From positions 1 to 64,000 of the forward strand of contig NZ_JAJJOE010000003.1 in the NCBI RefSeq assembly GCF_020907405.1: a stretch of 64,000 nt of DNA, written 5' to 3'. Below are positions 2,635 to 26,275 of this stretch, in pieces. The notes under the pieces are model-generated. The model saw nothing but the letters and a program-made list of their open reading frames with translations, searched no databases and was not told the DNA's origin. The DNA is from Arthrobacter sp. zg-Y769. Its GTDB lineage: Bacteria > Actinomycetota > Actinomycetes > Actinomycetales > Micrococcaceae. How positions within the stretch are numbered: position 1 is the first letter of the stretch; the number at the start of each line of letters is the position of its first letter. A program made the translations under genes and the position numbers.

Positions 2635-3197
<563 letters not shown>

Positions 3198-3226
3198 CTA
3201 CTTGGTTAGGAAAATACGCGCTGAAG

Positions 3227-3448
3227 TTAGAGAACGAACGCGAAAACCAGACCAAGGATAGCCAGTGCTTCAGTCAGTGCCAGGCCCAGGAAGGCGATGG
3301 GCTGCAGGACGCGCTGGGCTTCCGGCTGGCGGGCAACGCCGTTGATGTAGGCCGCGAAGACCAGGCCAACGCCGATGGCGCCGCCGATAGCCGACAGGCC
3401 GTAGCCGACGAGGTTGATGTTGCCTTCGATATCCAAAACACCAGTCAT
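3227..3448 (-). CDS. atpE: F0F1 ATP synthase subunit c
   Basis: This is the proteolipid of the proton-driven c-ring. The 73-residue hairpin has two hydrophobic helices joined by the polar loop RQPEAQ (residues 40-45). The ion-carrying carboxylate is Glu60 in LALTEALAI. The first helix carries the small-residue [11 protein letters not shown] packing motif. No extra polar residues typical of a sodium site are obvious, so a proton-type ring is inferred. The gene lies between atpB and atpF. Confidence 0.97.
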
Positions 3449-3521
3449 TTGGTTTTGTTCCTTTCAAGATGCCCGTTGGGCAGGTTGCATGGTTCAGGGG
3501 GTTCCCCGGGAGAGGGGAGGT

Positions 3522-4325
3522 TTAGTGTTCCTCGGCCAGGGAGCCTTGGATGTAGATCGCGGTCAGCAGGGTAAAGACGTAGGCCTGCAGGACCTGGATC
3601 AAAACTTCGAACAGGAACATGGCGACGCCGCCTACCAGGGTGAGCGCACCCAGCGGCTTCAACAGTCCTTCAGCCTCGAGCAGCAGGAACGCGGTTCCGC
3701 TGCCGGCAAGCATGATGATGAGGTGGCCCGACAGCATGGTCGCGAAGAGTCGCAGGCTGTGCGTGATCGGACGGACCAGGAAGGTGGAGATGATTTCGAT
3801 CAGTACCACGAGGGGCAGGATGGCCATCGGCACGCCGGACGGGACGGTGGCGAACTTGAAGTAACCCAGGCCGTGCTTCCGGATCCCGACGATAATCCAG
3901 GTGAAGTAGACAATCGCGGCCAGTGCATAGGCCGTGCCCACGTGGGACGTGGTCGGCAGCTGGGCCAGCGGGATGGTGCCCCACAGGTTGTTGATCAGGA
4001 TGAAGAAGAACAGCGCGAACAGCAGCGGAGTGAAGGACCGGAAGTCCTTTTCACCGATGATGTCCCGGCCGATCGAGTTGCGGACGAAGTTGTAGCTCCA
4101 TTCGCCCAGGAACTGCAGCCGGCCCGGGACCATCTGGCCCTTGCGGGCTGCGGCTACGAAGAACCACCCGATAAGGATGACGGAAAGGAGGATAAGCAGC
4201 ATCTGCTTTCCGAATCCTTCACCGCTTTCGGCGCCCCAGGGAAGGATCTCAGGGAGGTGCATGTCTTCGAGGGTAGGTGCGACGAATCCCTCGTCATTGG
4301 AGGCGGGAAGCGCAAGCGCGATCAA
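3522..4325 (-). CDS. atpB: F0F1 ATP synthase subunit a
   Basis: Subunit a forms the two proton half-channels next to the c-ring. The 267-residue polytopic protein contains the helix with the essential arginine (SLRLFATMLSGH) and a C-terminal helix rich in Gln/Tyr/Val (LIQVLQAYVFTLL). It is the first core F0 gene of the operon. It follows the small atpI/atpZ-like genes after an 85-base gap that probably holds its ribosome-binding site. Confidence 0.97.
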   Translation of the reverse strand: MIALALPASNDEGFVAPTLEDMHLPEILPWGAESGEGFGKQMLLILLSVILIGWFFVAAARKGQMVPGRLQFLGEWSYNFVRNSIGRDIIGEKDFRSFTPLLFALFFFILINNLWGTIPLAQLPTTSHVGTAYALAAIVYFTWIIVGIRKHGLGYFKFATVPSGVPMAILPLVVLIEIISTFLVRPITHSLRLFATMLSGHLIIMLAGSGTAFLLLEAEGLLKPLGALTLVGGVAMFLFEVLIQVLQAYVFTLLTAIYIQGSLAEEH

Positions 4326-6281: not shown

Positions 6282-8209
6282 CAGCCGGTCCGCCGTTCGC
6301 TATAGGGTTCCGGCTCATTCGCGGCGTCACCGGGGGCACCCGGACGGCGGGCACCGGGCATACGCACAATCTCACCGGCGTCTGTCGCTGCCCCGTCCGT
6401 CGGGACGCTGCCGGGTTCGATCCCGCAGCGCCGCAGCCAGTCGGTAAGGTCCAGCTCTTCGGGATCCAGCACGGCCACGGAGGCGTGGGAGATCTTCGGA
6501 TGCAGGGGGCGGGAATCCTCTTCTCCGGTGCCAACGAGGATCTCGTGCAGCTTTTCACCCTGGCGCAGTCCGGTGAAGACAATTTCGATGTCCTTGCCGG
6601 ACATCGCGATCATGCGGCGGGCGACGTCGAGGATCTTCACGGGCTCGCCCATGTCCAGGATCATCACCTCTCCCCCGCGGCCGATCGCACCGGCCTGGAT
6701 CACCAGCTGGCAGGCCTCGGGGATCGTCATGAAGAAGCGGGTGACCTCGGGGTCCGTCACAGTGACGGGCCCGCCCTGGCGGATCTGTTCGCTGAAGAGC
6801 GGAAGCATCGAACCCCGGCTGCCGATCACGTTGCCGAACCGCACGGAGACATACTGCTCTCCGGTGGCACGCGCCATCCAGGCGGTCAGCTTTTCCGCGA
6901 CGCGCTTGGAATGGCCGAGCACGGTGGTCGGGTTGGCGGCCTTGTCGGTGGAGATGTTCACGAAGTGGCGCACGTTCGCCTTGCGGGCCGCGGCCAGCAC
7001 ATTCGCGGTGCCGATGATATTGGTCTTCCACGCTTCCTGCGGGTACTGCTCCAACAGGGAAACATGCTTCAGCGCTGCGGCATGGAAAACGACGTCGGGG
7101 CGGCGTTCCCGGAAAATGCGCTCCAGCGCCTCCGGGTCGCGGATGTCGGCCAGCACGGTGTCCGGGCCGTCCAGCAGGCCGCGGCCGGTGATCGAGAGCT
7201 GGGTGAGCTGCAGGCCGGTCTCATCCCGGTCCACCATGATCAGCTCGCCGGGGTTGAAGGCGGTGATCTGGCGGCACAGTTCGGAGCCGATGGAGCCGCC
7301 GGCACCGGTGACAAGCACCTTCTTGCCGGACAGGTAGCCGGCCACCTCGTCAACGTGGATGTCCACCGGCCTGCGGCCGATGAGGTCTTCAACCGCTACG
7401 TCGCGGAAGTCGCCCAGGCCGGCGCCGTCACCCTTGGAGAGCATGTCCTTGAGCGGCGGAAGCACCAGCACGCGCAGGTCCAGGCCTTCGGCAAGGTCGG
7501 AAACCTCGCGCACCTGCTTCGCTTCCACATCGGCAATGGCGACGATCAGCACGGTAGCGCGGGTGCGGTGCACCAGTTCGGGGAGGTCCACGAGCTTGCC
7601 CAGGACCGGAACGGTAGCGAGCCTCAGGTGCTTCTTGGCCGGGTCATCGTCAACGAGGCCTACGGGGTAGTACGGAGATTCCGGGTCCTTCATCATCCGC
7701 GAGACCAGGGATCCGCCGAGGAAGCCGGCTCCGTACACGAGGGTGCGCTGGGCTTCCTCGCCCGGGCGCGCCTTGCTCTCCACGTACATCCGCTTGAGGT
7801 ACCGGATGGCCGCCATAAACAGGCAGGCAAAGGGGAAGGCGATCATGCCTGTGCTGCGCGGAATGTCGATCACGAGGCCGAAGAGGGCGCTGGCGAGGAC
7901 CAGGATGGCGGAGACAATCAGGGTCACCACGGCGAGCAGGCGCATTTCGTGGAAACTGCCGAAGCTGTAGCGTCCGCGGTACAGGGCGAACGAATAGCCA
8001 ACGATCAGCTGCGTCAGGACGGCCACGCCGCAGAAGACGGCGAGCCCCCCGGGGTTGATCTGCTCAACGGTCAGTTCATAGCGGAGCACCAGCGCAAGGC
8101 AGATGGACACGATCCAGGCCAGGGAGTCCAGCATGTACTGCGACCAGAGCCACAGGACGGGCTTTTCCTCCCGGGGAAGGTGACGGTTGTCCGTAGGTTT
8201 TTGCCTCAT
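6281..8209 (-). CDS. WbpM/CapD-like membrane NDP-sugar 4,6-dehydratase/epimerase
   Basis: The product is about 642 residues. Four N-terminal membrane helices (about residues 20-130) and a CoA-binding-like Rossmann domain precede a C-terminal SDR domain with the cofactor loop VTGAGGSIGSEL. The family converts UDP-GlcNAc to 4-keto-6-deoxy sugars for QuiNAc, FucNAc or bacillosamine. The usual catalytic Tyr/Met of the YxxxK-type motif is a Leu here (NPTTVLGHSK). The start is taken at an ATG; a TTG three codons upstream is also possible. The gene is divergent from the GT2 genes and coupled to the downstream WbpL-like gene. Confidence 0.87.
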   Translation of the reverse strand: MRQKPTDNRHLPREEKPVLWLWSQYMLDSLAWIVSICLALVLRYELTVEQINPGGLAVFCGVAVLTQLIVGYSFALYRGRYSFGSFHEMRLLAVVTLIVSAILVLASALFGLVIDIPRSTGMIAFPFACLFMAAIRYLKRMYVESKARPGEEAQRTLVYGAGFLGGSLVSRMMKDPESPYYPVGLVDDDPAKKHLRLATVPVLGKLVDLPELVHRTRATVLIVAIADVEAKQVREVSDLAEGLDLRVLVLPPLKDMLSKGDGAGLGDFRDVAVEDLIGRRPVDIHVDEVAGYLSGKKVLVTGAGGSIGSELCRQITAFNPGELIMVDRDETGLQLTQLSITGRGLLDGPDTVLADIRDPEALERIFRERRPDVVFHAAALKHVSLLEQYPQEAWKTNIIGTANVLAAARKANVRHFVNISTDKAANPTTVLGHSKRVAEKLTAWMARATGEQYVSVRFGNVIGSRGSMLPLFSEQIRQGGPVTVTDPEVTRFFMTIPEACQLVIQAGAIGRGGEVMILDMGEPVKILDVARRMIAMSGKDIEIVFTGLRQGEKLHEILVGTGEEDSRPLHPKISHASVAVLDPEELDLTDWLRRCGIEPGSVPTDGAATDAGEIVRMPGARRPGAPGDAANEPEPYSERRTG

Positions 8210-18832: not shown

Positions 18833-20128
18833 TCAGACTCCTTCTACCCGCAGGACGGATTTGACGTTCTTGATGACGTCCAGGCCCTTGATGGCCTCGA
18901 CGGTTGCTGCGAGGGCAGCCTCGGGTGCACGGTGCGTGACGAAGCGCAGTTCGGCGCTGGCGCCTTCACCGTGAATGGTCTGGCGCATGGTTTCGATGGA
19001 GACACCGTGTTCGGAGAACACCCGGGCGACGGCGGCCAGGACGCCGGGCTGGTCGGCCACATCCAGGCCGATCGAATAACTGGTGGTGACCTTTTCCAGC
19101 GGCAGGGCCGGCAGCTGTCCGCTCGGCCGGCCGGCGGGAACCGGGCCGCCGAGGACCAGCCTGCGGGCAGCGGTAACCACGTCGCCCATCACGGCCGACG
19201 CAGTAGGCGCTCCCCCGGCACCCTGGCCGTAGAACATCAGTTCTCCCGCGTTTTCCGCCTCGACGAACACGGCGTTGAACGCCCCGTGCACGGCGGCCAG
19301 CGGATGCAGGCGCGGCAGCAGGGTGGGATGCACCCGCACGCTGACGCCTTCGGCGCCGTCGGTGTCCGTGAACTTCTCGGCGATGGCCAGCAGCTTGATA
19401 ACGAACCCGGCTTCCCGGGCGGCGCTGATGTCCTCGGCGGTAACGGAGCTGATGCCTTCGCAGGAGACGTCCGAGAGGGCGAAACCGGTGTGGAACGCCA
19501 GGGAGGCAAGGATGGCCCCCTTTGCGGCGGCGTCGTGCCCCTCGACGTCGGCGGTGGGGTCCGCCTCGGCGTAGCCGAGCCGCTGGGCCTCGGCCAGGGC
19601 ATCGGCGAACTGGGCTCCGGTGGAGTCCATGGCATCGAGGATGTAGTTGGTGGTGCCGTTGACGATGCCCATCACCTTGGTGATCCGGTCACCGGAAAGG
19701 CTGTCCCGGATGGGGCGCAGGATGGGGATGGCACCGGCCACGGCGGCTTCGTAGGAGAGCTGGACCCCCGCGGCGTCGGCCTTTTCGTACAGGCTCGCAC
19801 CGTCTGCGGCGAGCAGCGCCTTGTTGCCGGTGACGACGGCGGCGCCCGAGCCCAGCGCGTGCAGGATCAGGCTGCGGGCCGGCTCAATGCCGCCCATCAG
19901 CTCGATCACGATGTCCGCGTCGCGGACCAGCGCCTCGGCGTCGGTGGTGAACAGTTCCGCCGGAAGCTCCACGTCCCGCGGCGCGTCCACGTTGCGCACT
20001 GCGATGCCGGACAGCTCCAGCCGCGCACCGAGGCGGGAGGCGAGGCCCTCGGCGTCGTCAATGAGGATCCGGGCAACCTGCGAACCTACGTTTCCGCACC
20101 CCAGCAGGGCTACTTTCAGGGTCTTCAT
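18833..20128 (-). CDS. hom: Homoserine dehydrogenase
   Basis: The enzyme reduces aspartate semialdehyde to homoserine. The 431-residue product has the Rossmann loop LLGCGNVGSQVA and the catalytic/substrate region GIVNGTTNYILDAM. A C-terminal ACT domain (about residues 350-425, DVADQPGVLAAVARVFSEHG) points to feedback control by threonine, as in corynebacterial Hom. It is not fused to aspartokinase. LysA lies 25 bases upstream. Confidence 0.96.
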   Translation of the reverse strand: MKTLKVALLGCGNVGSQVARILIDDAEGLASRLGARLELSGIAVRNVDAPRDVELPAELFTTDAEALVRDADIVIELMGGIEPARSLILHALGSGAAVVTGNKALLAADGASLYEKADAAGVQLSYEAAVAGAIPILRPIRDSLSGDRITKVMGIVNGTTNYILDAMDSTGAQFADALAEAQRLGYAEADPTADVEGHDAAAKGAILASLAFHTGFALSDVSCEGISSVTAEDISAAREAGFVIKLLAIAEKFTDTDGAEGVSVRVHPTLLPRLHPLAAVHGAFNAVFVEAENAGELMFYGQGAGGAPTASAVMGDVVTAARRLVLGGPVPAGRPSGQLPALPLEKVTTSYSIGLDVADQPGVLAAVARVFSEHGVSIETMRQTIHGEGASAELRFVTHRAPEAALAATVEAIKGLDVIKNVKSVLRVEGV

Positions 20129-20153
20129 TTACTGTGCCAACTCCTTGCAGAGG

Positions 20154-21578
20154 TTAGGAAACGTCGCGTGCCAACAGGTCGTCTTCGGTCTCGCCGCGCA
20201 CGATCAGCCGTGCGGCGCCGTCCCGTACAGCCACGACGGGCGGCCGGGTGAGGTAGTTGTAGTTGCTGGACAGGACCCAGCAGTAGGCGCCGGTGCCCGG
20301 AACAGCCAGCAGGTCCGACGCCGTGACATCACCGGGCAGGTAGGCGTCCCTCACCACGATGTCGCCGCTCTCGCAGTGTTTGCCGACGACGCGTGAAAGG
20401 ACCGCGTCAGCTTCGGATGTCCGCGAGGCCAGCACTGCGGAGTAGTCCGCGCCGTACAGCACGGGCCGGGCGTTGTCGCTCATCCCGCCGTCCACGCTGA
20501 CGTAGCGCCGCGGCGAGGTGCCGCCGTCGGGCGTGTCCACCCGGACCGTCTTGGTGGTGCCGGCGCGGTAGAGCGTAAAGGTGCTCGGACCCACGATGGC
20601 GCGTCCCGGTTCAATGGAGATCCGCGGAACGGCCAGTCCGAGCTCGCTGCAGGTGCTGCCGACGACGGCGGCCATCGCGTTGGCGATTTCGGCTGCCGGG
20701 CGCGGGGCGTCGGCCTCGGTGTAGGCGATGCCGTAGCCGCCGCCCAGGTCCAGTTCGGCCAGTTCGACGCCGTAGTCCTGCTTCACTTCTGCGAGGAAAC
20801 CGAGCAGCCGCCGCGCAGCCAGTTCAAAGCCGGCCGATTCGAAGATCTGCGAGCCGATGTGGCAGTGCACGCCCACCAGGTTCACGCCGTCGTGCTTGAG
20901 CGCCGTTTCCACGGCGGCCATGGCCGGGGACATTCCGTCCAGGTCCGGATCCGCGACCATGGAGAGGCCGAACTTCTGGTCCTCGTGGGCGGTGGCAATG
21001 AACTCGTGCGTGGAGGCATGGACGCCCGGGGTCAGGCGCAGCATCACGTTGGCGCGCTCCCCGCGGGAGGACGCCAGGTTCCCCAGCATTTCCAGCTCAC
21101 CGAGGCTGTCCACCACAATCCGGCCCAGCTCCATGTCGAGGGCACGGGTCAATTCAGCCAGGGACTTGTTGTTGCCGTGCAGTCCGAGCTGGCTGCCGTG
21201 GAGCCCGGCACGCCGGGCGACGGCCAGTTCGCCGCCGGAGCACGTGTCCAGGCGCAGTCCCTCGGAGGAGACCCAGCGCGCCACTTCGGTGCAGAGGAAG
21301 GACTTGCCCGCGTAGTAGACGTCCGCTCCCCCGCACAGCCCGGCGAACGCGGCGTCGAAAGAGTCCTTGAAGTCCCGGGCGCGGGCCCGGAAGTCCGCCT
21401 CGGACATCACGAACACGGGCGTGCCGAATTCCTCGGCGATCCGGGACACGGGGATGCCGGAGATTTCCAGCTCGCCGCCGGCACCGCGCGCCACGTCCTG
21501 CGCCCACAGCTGCGGGCGCAGGGCATTCGTGTCCTCGGGCTGGCTCAGCCACTGCGGAGCCAGGGGTGAAGCAGTCAT
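20154..21578 (-). CDS. lysA: Diaminopimelate decarboxylase
   Basis: This fold-type III PLP enzyme decarboxylates meso-diaminopimelate to lysine. The PLP lysine is Lys92 in VYYAGKSFLC, the Gly-rich phosphate loop is LDLGGGYGIAY, and CESGDIV belongs to the second active-site half. The 474-residue length fits actinobacterial LysA. It starts 3 bases after the argS stop, and this argS-lysA-hom order is widespread in actinobacteria. Confidence 0.96.
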   Translation of the reverse strand: MTASPLAPQWLSQPEDTNALRPQLWAQDVARGAGGELEISGIPVSRIAEEFGTPVFVMSEADFRARARDFKDSFDAAFAGLCGGADVYYAGKSFLCTEVARWVSSEGLRLDTCSGGELAVARRAGLHGSQLGLHGNNKSLAELTRALDMELGRIVVDSLGELEMLGNLASSRGERANVMLRLTPGVHASTHEFIATAHEDQKFGLSMVADPDLDGMSPAMAAVETALKHDGVNLVGVHCHIGSQIFESAGFELAARRLLGFLAEVKQDYGVELAELDLGGGYGIAYTEADAPRPAAEIANAMAAVVGSTCSELGLAVPRISIEPGRAIVGPSTFTLYRAGTTKTVRVDTPDGGTSPRRYVSVDGGMSDNARPVLYGADYSAVLASRTSEADAVLSRVVGKHCESGDIVVRDAYLPGDVTASDLLAVPGTGAYCWVLSSNYNYLTRPPVVAVRDGAARLIVRGETEDDLLARDVS

Positions 21579-21581
21579 AAC

Positions 21582-23231
21582 TTACATCCGTTCGGGTGCG
21601 GAGACTCCCAGCAGACCCAGGCCGTTGGCCAGGACCTGGCGTGCGGCGAGGTTCAGCCACAGGCGGGTGCGGTTGGTGTCAGTGATTTCCTCATCGCCCT
21701 GCGGAGCAATGCGGCAGGCGTCGTACCAGCGGTGGTAGGTGCCTGCAATGACCTCGAGGTGGCGGGCCACGCGGTGCGGTTCGCGGAAGGCACTGGCCTG
21801 CGCGACGACGCCGGGGTACTGCCCCAGGGCGGCCAGCAGGGCGCTCTCGGTGGGATGGCTCAGCAGCGAGGCGTCGAAGGCGGAATCGTCGACGCCGGCT
21901 GCCTCGGCGTTGCGGGCCAGGGCATGGGTGCGGGCGTGGGCGTACTGGACGTAGAACACGGGGTTCTCGTTGCTGCGCTTGGTCAGCAGGTCCAGGTCCA
22001 CGTCGATGTTGGAATCCGCGGAGAAACGGGCCAGCGTGTAGCGGGCAGCATCCACGCCCACCGCGTCCACCAGATCCTCGAGGGTGACCACGGTGCCGGC
22101 ACGCTTGGACATGCGCACGGGCTTGCCGTCCTTGACCAGGTTCACCATCTGGCCGATCAGCACCTCGACACATTCCGGGTCGTGGCCCAGTGCTGCGGCT
22201 GCGGCCTTCAGGCGGGCCACGTAGCCGTGGTGGTCAGCGCCCAGCATGTAGACGTTCAGGTCGAAGCCGCGCTCGCGCTTGTTGTGGATGTACGCAATGT
22301 CGCCGGCAATGTAGGCGGCGTTGCCGTCCGACTTAATGACCACGCGGTCCTTGTCGTCGCCGAACGCGGTGGAGTTCAGCCACCAGGCGCCGTCCTTCTC
22401 GTACAGGTTCTCGGAGCCCTTGAGCTGCTCGAGCAGTTTGGCCACCTGGCCGTTTTCGTGCAGCGAATCCTCGTGGAAGAAGACGTCGAAGTCCACGCCG
22501 AAGTTGTGCAGGGATTCCTTGATGTCGCCGAACATGAAGTCAACGCCGACCGCGCGGAAACGTTCCTGTGCCTCGGCGTCGGGCAGTTCGGTGATGTTCG
22601 GCTCGGCGGCCAGCACGCGGTTGGCAATGTCGACGATGTACTCGCCGGCGTAGCCGTCTTCCGGCGCAGGCTCGCCCTTGGCCGAGGCAAGCAGTGAGCG
22701 GGCAAAGCGGTCAATCTGCGCACCGTGGTCATTGAAGTAGTACTCGCGGGTGACCTCGGCGCCCTGGGACTGGAAGACCCGGGCCAGGGCATCACCGACG
22801 GCGGCCCAGCGGGTGCCGCCCAGGTGGATGGGGCCGGTGGGGTTGGCGGAAACGAACTCCAGGTTGATCCGGGTGCCCTTGAGGATTTCCGAGGTGCCGT
22901 AGGCGGGCCCGGCCTCGACAATGGCCTTGGCCAGTTCGCCGGCCGCACCGGCGTCGAGGGTGATATTCAGGAAGCCCGGGCCGGCAATGTCGACCTTCGC
23001 CACACCGGCGATCTTTTCCAGCCGGCCCTTGAGGATCTCTGCGAACTGGCGGGGGTTCATCCCTGCCTGCTTTGACAGCTGCAGGGCGATGTTGGTGGCC
23101 CAGTCACCGTGGTCACGGTTCTTCGGGCGCTCCACGCGCACCTCCCCGGGCAGCTCGACGCTGAAGTCACCGGCGTCGATGGCGTCTTGGAGGCAGGCAG
23201 TTACGGCAGAGGAAAGTTCTTCAGGAGTCAC
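21582..23231 (-). CDS. argS: Arginine-tRNA ligase
   Basis: This class I aminoacyl-tRNA synthetase charges tRNA-Arg. The 549-residue product has an N-terminal additional domain. The HIGH-type motif appears as HLGGTRWA, the variant usual in actinobacterial ArgRS. The KMSKS-type motif is VRMSKRAG, and a helical anticodon-binding domain forms the C-terminus. It heads the argS-lysA-hom-thrC-thrB operon; its promoter should lie in 23232-23392, shared with the divergent lipoprotein gene. Confidence 0.96.
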
Positions 23232-23392
23232 CGGTTAAGCATAGCCGGGTGCAGCGCGGGTCCGGTTTTGTATGACGGGCCTTACGCTGTGCGGATCCGG
23301 CACCGGCACTAATGATGCGATGTAATGGGAGAGAAGACCCCGGGCCGGTCAACGGCCCCGGGCGCAAAGCGACCCCCACTCCAAGGAGAACC

Positions 23393-23881
23393 GTGAACCG
23401 AGCGAGCAAGTCCCTGCTCTGTGCCGCCGCCGGCCTGTCCCTGCTCTCGGCCGCCGGGTGTGCCGCAGGCGAAGAACCCGCCGAGGCAGGTGCCGCCCCT
23501 GCCGAATCCCCCGCTGAGTCCGCTCCCGCATCCGCTCCTGCATCTTCCGGCGCGGCCTCCCCCGATGCTGCCGGTTCCGGCAGCTACACCGACGGCGAGT
23601 ACTCCGGCACCGGAAGCTACATCCCGCCGTCGGGCACCTCCGAGGACGTGGACGTGACCCTGCACCTCGAAGGCAGCGTGGTGACCGAGCTTGAGGTGGA
23701 GACTTCGCAGAAGAACCCGACGTCCAAGCAGTACCAGCGCGAATTCACTTCCAACGTGAAGGAGCAGGTGGTGGGGAAAAACCTGGACGAGCTGGACGTG
23801 GACAAAGTGGCCGGCTCCTCGCTGACCAGCGAGGGCTTCAATCGGGCCCTGGACGCCATCCGCTCCGAAGCTGCCTCCTAG
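23393..23881 (+). CDS. FMN-binding-domain lipoprotein
   Basis: This 162-residue exported lipoprotein has an N-terminal signal ending at a lipobox-like SAAGC (Cys23). An Ala/Pro/Ser-rich linker follows (about 24-60). The C-terminal domain resembles NqrC/RnfG-type FMN-binding domains and carries the flavin-attachment-like motif DKVAGSSLTSEGF. Compared with the common DxxSGATxTS, the acceptor would be a Ser. The GTG start is fixed by AAGGAGAA ending 2 bases before it. ApbE follows directly, which strongly suggests covalent FMN attachment to this protein. Confidence 0.85.
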   Translation: MNRASKSLLCAAAGLSLLSAAGCAAGEEPAEAGAAPAESPAESAPASAPASSGAASPDAAGSGSYTDGEYSGTGSYIPPSGTSEDVDVTLHLEGSVVTELEVETSQKNPTSKQYQREFTSNVKEQVVGKNLDELDVDKVAGSSLTSEGFNRALDAIRSEAAS

Positions 23882-23891
23882 TACAGCACCC

Positions 23892-24761
23892 GTGCATACC
23901 CTGGGGTTTGAGGCGATCGGCACGCAGTGGACCCTGTCCACCGCCGTGCCGCTCGATCCCGCCACGCAGGCTGCCGTCGCGGAGGTGGTCGGCAGCTATG
24001 ACCGGACCTATTCGCGTTTCCGGTCCGATTCCACCGTGGCACGGATGGCCGAAGCAGCAGGAAACTTCGTCCTCCCGGCGTCGGCCGCGCCCCTGCTGAC
24101 CCTCTTCGATACCCTGCAGCGGCTCACGGGCGGTGCGGTGAACCCGCTGGTGGGCCGCTCGCTGGAGGTGTTGGGGTACGACGCCGGGTACAGCTTCCTG
24201 CCCTCCGGTTCGCCCGTGCCCGCTGCGGCCTGGGCGGAAACCGTCTCCTGGACCACCGACGGGAGTGCCACCACGCTGACCATCTCCGCTCCGGTGACCT
24301 TCGATATCGGAGCCGCCGGGAAGGGCCAGCTGGTGGACCTGGTCAGCGCGGTCCTGGCAGAGGCCGGCCACCGGGAGTATGTGGTCGATGCCGGTTCCGA
24401 CCTGCGTTCTGCCGGCGCCGCTGAGCTGCGGGTAGCGCTGGAGCATCCGTATGACACCACCCGGGCCATCGGAGTGCTGACCCTCGCGGACCGTGCGCTG
24501 TGCGCCTCGGCCGTCAACCGCCGTCAGTGGGGCGACGGCCTGCACCATGTGCTCGATGCCCGCACCGGAGCCCCGGTGGACACGGTGGCGGCCACCTGGG
24601 CGCTGGCGGCCGACGCCATGACTGCCGACGGGCTGGCCACTGCCCTGTTCTTTGCCGAGCCGGACGAGTTGGCCCGTGAGTTCTCCTTCGACTATGTCCG
24701 GATGTTCACTGACGGCCGGGCCGACTATTCCCCTGCAATGGCTGGAGTCCTGTTCCCATGA
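23892..24761 (+). CDS. apbE: ApbE-type FAD:protein FMN transferase
   Basis: ApbE splits FAD and links FMN by a phosphoester to Thr/Ser of FMN-binding domains. The 289-residue product has the family core (DRTYSRFRSDSTV), the ISAPVTFDIGAAGKGQLVD region and a C-terminal Thr/Asp-rich metal/FAD site (AATWALAADAMTADGLATAL). The start is GTG, 10 bases after the lipoprotein stop, and the end overlaps the next gene by 4 bases. No signal peptide or lipobox is visible, although the presumed target is outside the membrane. Confidence 0.92.
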   Translation: MHTLGFEAIGTQWTLSTAVPLDPATQAAVAEVVGSYDRTYSRFRSDSTVARMAEAAGNFVLPASAAPLLTLFDTLQRLTGGAVNPLVGRSLEVLGYDAGYSFLPSGSPVPAAAWAETVSWTTDGSATTLTISAPVTFDIGAAGKGQLVDLVSAVLAEAGHREYVVDAGSDLRSAGAAELRVALEHPYDTTRAIGVLTLADRALCASAVNRRQWGDGLHHVLDARTGAPVDTVAATWALAADAMTADGLATALFFAEPDELAREFSFDYVRMFTDGRADYSPAMAGVLFP

Positions 24762-26275
24762 GTATTTCCGCCCCCACTGCGCCGCGCACCCTGAACACCT
24801 TCCTGGGACGTTGGACCATGTACCGGCTGAGTGTCTGGCTGCTGCTGGCAGTTGCCGCCTGGGCCTTTGTCCTTTCCTTCGCGGGGGTGCTGTTCTACAG
24901 CCCGGCTGAGCTGGGTGCGACGGCGGTGACGGCGGTGGCTTCCACCATGATTACCAGCCGCGTGGCCGGCCTGCTGCTGCGCACCCGTCCGCAGACCGAT
25001 TCCTCCCTGATTACCGGGCTGCTCCTGTTTTTCCTGTTCTGGCCCAGCACCGACGGCGCGCAGCTGGCTACCGTGGCCCTCGCCGGGGCCGTGGCTACGG
25101 CGTCGAAATATCTCCTGGCGTTCCGACGCCGGCACATCTTCAACCCCGCTGCCGTGGGCGCGTTCGTGGTGGCCGTGACCGGACTGGGCGGTGCGGTCTG
25201 GTGGGTGGCAACTCCCGGCATGCTCGTCGCCGTTCTTCCGGCAGCGGTCCTGATGCTCTACCGGAACCGGCTGCTCCCGATGGCGGGGGTCTTTGTCCTG
25301 ACCGCTGTGATTGTGACCCTGGCCCGTTTCCTTGCTGCCGGCGAGTCCCTTCCCGGCGCCCTGACAACCATTGCCGTGTCTTATCCCCTGGTGTTCCTGG
25401 CCGGCTTTATGCTCACGGAGCCTCTGACCCTGCCGCCGCTTCGCATCCAGCGCCTGCTGGAGGCCGCCGTCGTCGGCGTGCTCTTCTCCGTGCCGCTGTC
25501 CCTGGGTCCGGTGATGATGTCTCCGGAACTGGCGTTGCTGGCGGGGAACGCACTGGCTTTCGCGATGGGCCAGCGCGGAGCTGTCCGGCTGCGGCTGCGG
25601 GAAATCCGGGAACTGACTCCTACTGCCCGTGAGCTGGTGTTTGAGCCGATACGTCCTGTCCGTTTCCGTGCCGGCCAGTACATGGAACTGGCCGTGCCGC
25701 ATTTTGAGCCGGACTCCCGGGGAACGCGGCGTATTTTCAGCATCACTACTGCGCCTTCGGAGCCGGGCACAGTGGCTGTGGGGCTGCGGGTGGCCGAACC
25801 GGGCAGCAGCTTCAAGACCGCTCTGCTGCGGCTGCGGCCCGGAGCCGAAGTGGGTGCCACTGCAGTTGCCGGTGACTTCCTGCTGCCGCGGGATCCGCGT
25901 ACCGGGATCCTTCTGATTGCTTCCGGCATCGGCATCACTCCGTTTATCAGCCAGATCCGGCAGGTCCGGGGCGAGGACCGGGACATTGTGCTGGTGTATG
26001 CGGCCTCCTCGGTCGACGAGCTGGCCTATGCCGGGGAACTGCAGGAACCGGGGGTTCGGGTGCTGGTCTGCACACCGTCGGATCCCGGGATCCCGGGCTG
26101 GGCCTGGCTGGGTCCGGGTCTCCCTGGCGCGGAAGTCCTGCGTGCGGAGGTTCCCGACATCAGCGGACGGGCCATCTACGTTTCCGGCTCGCCACAGGCG
26201 GTGACTGCTGCCCGCAAGGCCGTCCGCGGCGCCGGAGGCCGGCGGATCCGTACCGACCCGTTCCTGGGGTACTAG
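24758..26275 (+). CDS. RnfD/NqrB-like membrane domain fused to ferredoxin-NADP reductase-type domain
   Basis: The 505-residue protein has an N-terminal RnfD/NqrB-like region with about nine membrane helices (residues 20-270). Family marks there are SSLITGLLL, RRHIFNPAAVG and FMLTEPLTLPP. A cytosolic FAD/NAD(P) reductase module (about 275-505) has RFRAGQYMELAVPH for FAD and IASGIGITPFISQI for NAD(P). No SGAT-type flavinylation site is obvious in the membrane part. It probably takes electrons from NAD(P)H via FAD across the membrane to the FMN lipoprotein encoded two genes upstream. Confidence 0.85.
   Translation: MSISAPTAPRTLNTFLGRWTMYRLSVWLLLAVAAWAFVLSFAGVLFYSPAELGATAVTAVASTMITSRVAGLLLRTRPQTDSSLITGLLLFFLFWPSTDGAQLATVALAGAVATASKYLLAFRRRHIFNPAAVGAFVVAVTGLGGAVWWVATPGMLVAVLPAAVLMLYRNRLLPMAGVFVLTAVIVTLARFLAAGESLPGALTTIAVSYPLVFLAGFMLTEPLTLPPLRIQRLLEAAVVGVLFSVPLSLGPVMMSPELALLAGNALAFAMGQRGAVRLRLREIRELTPTARELVFEPIRPVRFRAGQYMELAVPHFEPDSRGTRRIFSITTAPSEPGTVAVGLRVAEPGSSFKTALLRLRPGAEVGATAVAGDFLLPRDPRTGILLIASGIGITPFISQIRQVRGEDRDIVLVYAASSVDELAYAGELQEPGVRVLVCTPSDPGIPGWAWLGPGLPGAEVLRAEVPDISGRAIYVSGSPQAVTAARKAVRGAGGRRIRTDPFLGY

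Follow-up and report, generated by a model that had tools for sequence, protein, structure and literature searches.

Three closely spaced genes on the forward strand of a 64,000-nucleotide stretch of DNA from Arthrobacter sp. zg-Y769 (contig NZ_JAJJOE010000003.1, positions 1 to 64,000; hereafter the window) encode a putative flavin-based electron transfer module, and we examine here what these genes are, how consistently they are kept together, and where flavin mononucleotide (FMN) is likely to be attached to one of their products. In order, they encode a 162-amino-acid lipoprotein with an FMN_bind domain that is predicted to be exported (23393-23881), a 289-amino-acid ApbE, that is, a flavin adenine dinucleotide (FAD):protein FMN transferase (23892-24761), and a 505-amino-acid fusion protein that joins an NqrB/RnfD-like membrane domain to an FAD/NAD(P)-binding reductase (24758-26275). 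The first two genes are separated by 10 bases, the second and third overlap by 4 bases, and a Shine-Dalgarno-like AAGGAGA (23383-23389), read from the sequence, stands ahead of the GTG start of the lipoprotein gene at 23393. The coordinates, strand, spacing, kinds of gene and lipobox are all as described in an earlier interpretation made from the letters of the window (the sequence-only reading). The host genome is 3.4 Mb in size and contains a single ApbE match (E 0.001) and a single FMN_bind match (E 1), both within the trio, and the closest named relatives of the fusion are from Arthrobacter species.

Results

Profiles and predicted structure divide the fusion into a membrane domain (residues 11-272; 24788-25573) and an FNR-type FAD and NAD(P) domain (residues 273-505; 25574-26272). 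PF00175 reaches 22.0 bits against a cut-off of 22, which identifies an NAD-binding domain, and it matches 30/30 of the nearest fusion relatives (E up to 1). PF03116, the NqrB/RnfD family, has no match in the fusion (E up to 1) or in the genome (E up to 10) and matches 2 of the 30 near relatives (E up to 1); a search based on this profile would miss the other 28. A structure model of the whole fusion (predicted local distance difference test [pLDDT] of 78.7) left the membrane half barely tested, and this half was therefore folded separately and then compared by structure. When the membrane half was compared by profile with one protein, E. coli RsxD, the match was weak (probability 9.5 and 12). 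It is the predicted structure, together with the relatives that do match PF03116, that identifies the membrane half as RnfD/NqrB-like, as the sequence-only reading had correctly assigned by eye, and the modelled folds of both halves support an identity as NqrB/RnfD plus FNR. The stretch of RsxD containing DGISQATPL, which we take to hold the flavin threonine and the flavin site, has no counterpart in the membrane half, and [ST]GA[ST] occurs in just 1 of 43 membrane domains, at a different place. The covalent flavin loop of NqrB/RnfD, and with it the flavin site, is absent from the fusion. A conserved cysteine was not found among the 43 membrane domains.

The lipoprotein was assigned by PF04205 (FMN_bind; 20.9 bits in the protein search and 22.1 bits in the genome search, with a cut-off of 22) together with family alignments. 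Hydropathy and inspection by eye place a hydrophobic core at its N terminus (peak at residues 8-26) followed by AAGC with Cys23, so that the signal peptide up to the lipobox cysteine occupies 23393-23461, and a lipobox-like cysteine behind a hydrophobic core is present in 74 of 78 lipoprotein relatives. With this lipoprotein adjoining ApbE, the pair constitutes a flavinylation cluster in the sense of a signal or lipid site on the ApbE or FMN_bind gene. The published substrate motif of ApbE is D-x-x-[S/T]-G-A-[S/T] (PMC12052999), in place of which the lipoprotein has D-K-V-A-G-S-S, within the presumed flavin-acceptor region D137-K-V-A-G-S-S143-L-T-S146 (23801-23830). None of the 78 relatives has [ST]GA[ST] in its last 60 residues; SS-L-[T/S]-S-x-G-F is common to the 30/30 nearest and to all 78, and SGSS is found in 11 of them. 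When aligned with E. coli RsxG (FTGATITP) and with two deep relatives that have the full fusion, L120 (VSGATNTS) and L119 (VTGATNTS), Ser143 (23819-23821) falls opposite the threonine of SGAT/TGAT.

For comparison, 20 regions of the same family were picked by hand as controls (L155-L172 and others), and among L155-L172 are clusters with a membrane part that we take to be of the MsrQ/ferric-reductase type. Two of the controls gave no FMN_bind match, 16 of the remaining 18 have [SA]G[AGS][TS], mostly SGAT or SGGT, and the last two, L166 and L170, keep AGSS with the following LTS lost. Thr145 was considered as an alternative acceptor but discarded: its counterpart in the alignment is the second threonine of SGATxT, and L166 and L170 have lost it but kept SS. 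From these comparisons FMN would most likely be carried on Ser143; a serine in this role would not by itself be a novelty, since the published motif allows serine or threonine. Export of an already folded flavoprotein by the twin-arginine translocation (Tat) pathway was also considered, but it is not the rule, as RR-x-phi-phi is found in just 7 of the 74 relatives with a lipobox (78 examined), several of them with uncertain starts, and the window signal has no RR. One of the two AGSS controls, L170 (G287), has an ApbE and an AGSS-type lipoprotein at 2754-4164, in reversed gene order and with no fusion found alongside, and a second, divergent FMN_bind-like protein is encoded there at 7257-7685.

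The ApbE of the window matches PF02424 at E 3e-38 and retains the active-site Ser, His and Asp of the family, as read by eye from an alignment with 6nxi. A hydropathy scan of this protein found no hydrophobic segment, and neither of the features that mark an extracytosolic ApbE, a signal peptide or a lipid anchor, was seen in it. Its relatives at the named loci were examined for an export signal, defined as a 12-residue window with a mean hydropathy of at least 1.8 (strict) or 1.2 ahead of the ApbE domain. Among the 77 of 80 loci that were evaluated, none reached 1.8 and 5 reached 1.2; the highest value, 1.74, came from a 13-residue stretch running into the domain. Applied to control lipoproteins ahead of the cysteine, the same test recovered 61/78 at 1.8 and 76/78 at 1.2, so the strict limit misses some true signals. 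Since 20 ApbEs encoded in other clusters of the family (judged by eye) and the ApbE of L120 likewise have no signal, a signal-less ApbE is not a mark of the trio alone. In a tree of 55 ApbE sequences, hand-picked from the fetched loci, the 18 sampled ApbEs with an AGSS-type partner form one clade with a support of 100/100, including that of L170, which has no fusion. This clade is separate from the ApbEs beside SGAT proteins, among which that of L120 is placed. The topology fits a matched enzyme and substrate, and shared descent alone could also explain it.

All three genes occur together in 30/30 of the nearest loci, the window's own included, and 78/80 named loci keep this gene order, all on a single strand. 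An ApbE match lies beside the fusion in all 80 (two of them cut by contig ends), and at the two loci where the lipoprotein was missed the distance from the fusion to the end of the contig is 198 and 702 bases. In a survey of 295 genomes of the family, a match of some kind to the fusion was present in 239 at E 0.001, and the fusion was called at E 2.2e-83 or better in 86 of them; the weaker matches listed are to the reductase part or to pieces of split copies. Three of the 86 (G114, G144 and G285) have an incomplete or split fusion. ApbE lies within 400 bases upstream of the fusion in 84 of the 86 genomes, and in G285, where the fusion is split over contigs, it lies beside the front piece. At E 5.2e-44 or better, the lipoprotein subtype is present in 85/86 fusion genomes versus 0/209 others (best 2.5e-26), with FMN_bind-like proteins as a whole spread more widely (116/295 at E 0.001). 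These counts bear out the three-gene link proposed in the sequence-only reading: homologues of the three genes are regular, not rare, neighbours in other genomes. The fusion was found in 24/24 genomes of the genus that were searched. Across the phylum, a near full-length fusion was found in 8/396 genomes, the host's own included and one with a stop codon, and 13 further genomes match in the reductase part only. The trio is therefore common within a part of the order and rare outside it. The stand-alone FNR genes of these 13 genomes (L122-L134) were considered as a split form of the system and rejected: profile searches within up to 1.5 kb on each side gave no match to the NqrB-like domain or the lipoprotein, and one to ApbE at E 0.91, and the neighboring genes were looked at in four of the 13. 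The title of one contig (L056) names Vibrio cholerae strain 35D, yet its trio matches Arthrobacter, and this record looks contaminated.

A survey of partner genes at the 80 named loci, covering up to 8 kb on each side as the longest non-overlapping reading frames (by which small genes may be missed), found no constant fourth member. The commonest gene clusters beyond the trio were present at 39, 38, 27, 22, 19 and 18 of the 80 loci. Those at 39, 27 and 22 loci, which we presume to be lysA, argS and hom, reflect shared gene order, as they are divergent and upstream, and the others lie at varied distances. In the window itself, the trio is divergent from the minus-strand genes at 18833-23231, which presumably correspond to argS, lysA and hom.

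A separate observation concerns 20 other ApbE loci of the family, also picked by hand. In 15 of these (L135, L137-L141, L143-L148, L151, L153 and L154) a small protein is encoded directly upstream of apbE, and L150 has one too. These proteins are mostly about 80-120 amino acids long (longer where the first start codon is used) and by eye begin with a hydrophobic segment at the N terminus, contain a stretch rich in Ser and Gly, and have S[S/A]GS at the extreme C terminus; 16 of the 727 reading frames of at least 60 amino acids at the 20 loci end in S[SA]G[ST]. The FMN_bind profile gave no match to them better than E 0.018. Such a protein could be a new minimal substrate of ApbE, in effect a flavin tail. 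A limited literature search for ApbE flavinylation of C-terminal tails turned up work on complex II only.

Discussion

The trio is real and well conserved, and it is of a kind that has already been described. An NQR/RNF-like system, in the definition of Meheust et al. 2021 (PMC8238504), has PF03116 at the N terminus and PF00175 at the C terminus of a protein encoded in a flavinylation cluster. These authors report 127 such clusters, mainly in Actinobacteria and the candidate phyla radiation, and suggest that electrons move in one direction only, from NAD(P)H to an FMN domain outside the membrane. Huang et al. 2024 (PMC10979944) modelled the pair from Ktedonobacter racemifer, with the flavin site of NqrB/RnfD not conserved and the FMN protein and membrane protein in a tight complex; in the text available to us, the type stands in print as bioinformatics and an AlphaFold model. 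Because the window trio shares this architecture, namely an FMN protein resembling NqrC/RnfG alongside an NqrB/RnfD-like domain that is joined to PF00175, in a flavinylation cluster, along with the loss of the flavin site, we regard it as a member of this kind. It differs in a membrane half that lies below PF03116 detection, and thus outside the operational definition, as well as in its [AGS][GS]SS acceptor motif and in an ApbE without a visible export signal, and these last two features do not appear in the accessible parts of either account of NQR/RNF-like systems (PMC8238504, PMC10979944). The new part would be the AGSS-type motif, matched by a separate ApbE clade, together with the apparent location of ApbE on the inside.

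Two other known systems bear a resemblance to the trio. The MsrQ-like flavinylation systems, as far as the consulted portion of Meheust et al. 2021 describes them, also bring ApbE together with an FMN protein and with a membrane protein that has an FNR domain at its end. Clusters of this appearance occur in the same family (L155-L172), but the NqrB-like profile does not match their membrane part, and in 16 of the 18 controls with an FMN_bind match the motif is the [SA]G[AGS][TS] given above. With Na+-NQR/RNF, the trio has in common the NqrB/RnfD fold, an NqrF-like reductase domain and an NqrC/RnfG-type FMN domain. Unlike in those complexes, the window-type membrane half has no conserved cysteine, and the genome has no above-cut-off match to PF03116, PF02508 (RnfA/E, NqrD/E; best 17.4 bits, cut-off 23.8) or PF13375 (RnfC_N; best 20.9 bits, cut-off 25.6). 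The claim of the sequence-only reading that the module operates without the rest of Rnf/Nqr holds to the extent of these three families, NqrA and RnfB lying outside the search. The electron path that it had proposed is the same as the published one, as given in the available text of PMC8238504 and PMC10979944.

We consider, with a probability of roughly 0.75, that the trio is a self-contained NQR/RNF-like electron exporter in which ApbE loads FMN onto the lipoprotein, most likely in the cytosol. On the cytosolic side, the FAD of the FNR half of the fusion would be reduced by NAD(P)H, electrons would traverse the membrane via a non-covalent flavin in the NqrB/RnfD-like half, and they would then reduce the FMN on the membrane-anchored lipoprotein, from which they would pass to a small diffusible acceptor on the outside. 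The direction of flow, the flavin of the membrane half, the preference for donor and the acceptor are elements that we infer, as is the FMN bound to the lipoprotein. The acceptor is likely to be small or made elsewhere, because no fourth gene is constant; ferric iron is a first guess, to which only the six clusters with VIT1 in Meheust et al. 2021 (PMC8238504) lend any help. FMN would be supplied by the neighboring ApbE, most likely to Ser143 and before the lipoprotein is exported.

Several observations weigh against this proposal. ApbE and its lipoprotein substrate seem to reside on opposite sides of the membrane. The acceptor motif departs from the published one twice (A140 for S/T and S142 for A), and its aspartate is retained in just 31/78 relatives, with glycine before SS in 75/78. 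One fusion, in G028 (L182), was found with neither apbE nor the lipoprotein gene alongside, the only clear exception of 86, and at L116, which is from another family and belongs to the eight genomes of the phylum with a near full-length fusion, ApbE lies beside the fusion with no lipoprotein in the 4.6 kb examined. Outward flow through the fusion is moreover an assumption, because NqrB in NQR is usually placed on the inward branch.

Three other explanations were weighed with these points in mind. If the motif had decayed, with FMN not covalently attached but held loosely or absent and ApbE modifying some other protein, both the [AGS][GS]SS in place of [S/T]GA[S/T] and the ApbE without a visible export signal would be accounted for. 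We nevertheless find this unlikely, as the host genome has no other FMN_bind match, ApbE adjoins the fusion almost without exception (84/86) with its catalytic residues apparently intact, the ApbEs with AGSS-type partners group together even where the fusion is missing (L170), and the SS pair persists where LTS has been lost (L166 and L170). A shortened NQR, in which the fusion would feed menaquinone or pump ions and the lipoprotein would be a side branch, is quite improbable given that the families of the NqrD/E and RnfC types stay below cut-off in the genome (NqrA was not searched) and that the lipoprotein is kept just as regularly as the fusion. An inward module, in which an external reductant would reduce the lipoprotein FMN and the fusion would reduce NAD(P)+, draws on the inward movement of electrons from periplasmic FMN through NqrB/RnfD in NQR and on the capacity of FNR-type enzymes to work both ways, but it is very improbable, with no constant donor gene beside the trio and a published proposal that runs outward (PMC10979944).

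For the electron exporter that we favor, flavinylation outside the cell is doubtful because ApbE has no visible export signal, and for the same reason the simplest reading, that FMN is attached to the lipoprotein in the cytosol before export, is the most likely one. Cytosolic ApbEs are named in the accessible review literature, yet for soluble or intracellular targets, and the portions of the literature searched contain no statement of FMN attachment by ApbE before export, although such a statement may exist elsewhere. Going further, we tentatively suggest, as a possibility somewhat short of even odds, that a distinct cytosolic lineage of ApbE recognizes [AGS]-[GS]-S-S in place of [S/T]GA[S/T] and loads FMN onto the serine of the lipoprotein precursor before it leaves the cytosol. 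If this is true, a Gram-positive cell would be able to build an electron-exporting flavoprotein of its envelope without FAD on the outside. The compactness of the trio, its presence throughout the sampled genus and the Arthrobacter species among its closest relatives make flavin binding, direction of flow and the acceptor directly testable. Should a serine acceptor, an unusual motif and an inside ApbE all hold, then both the rule by which ApbE substrates are searched for and the belief that flavinylation takes place outside would need to be widened.
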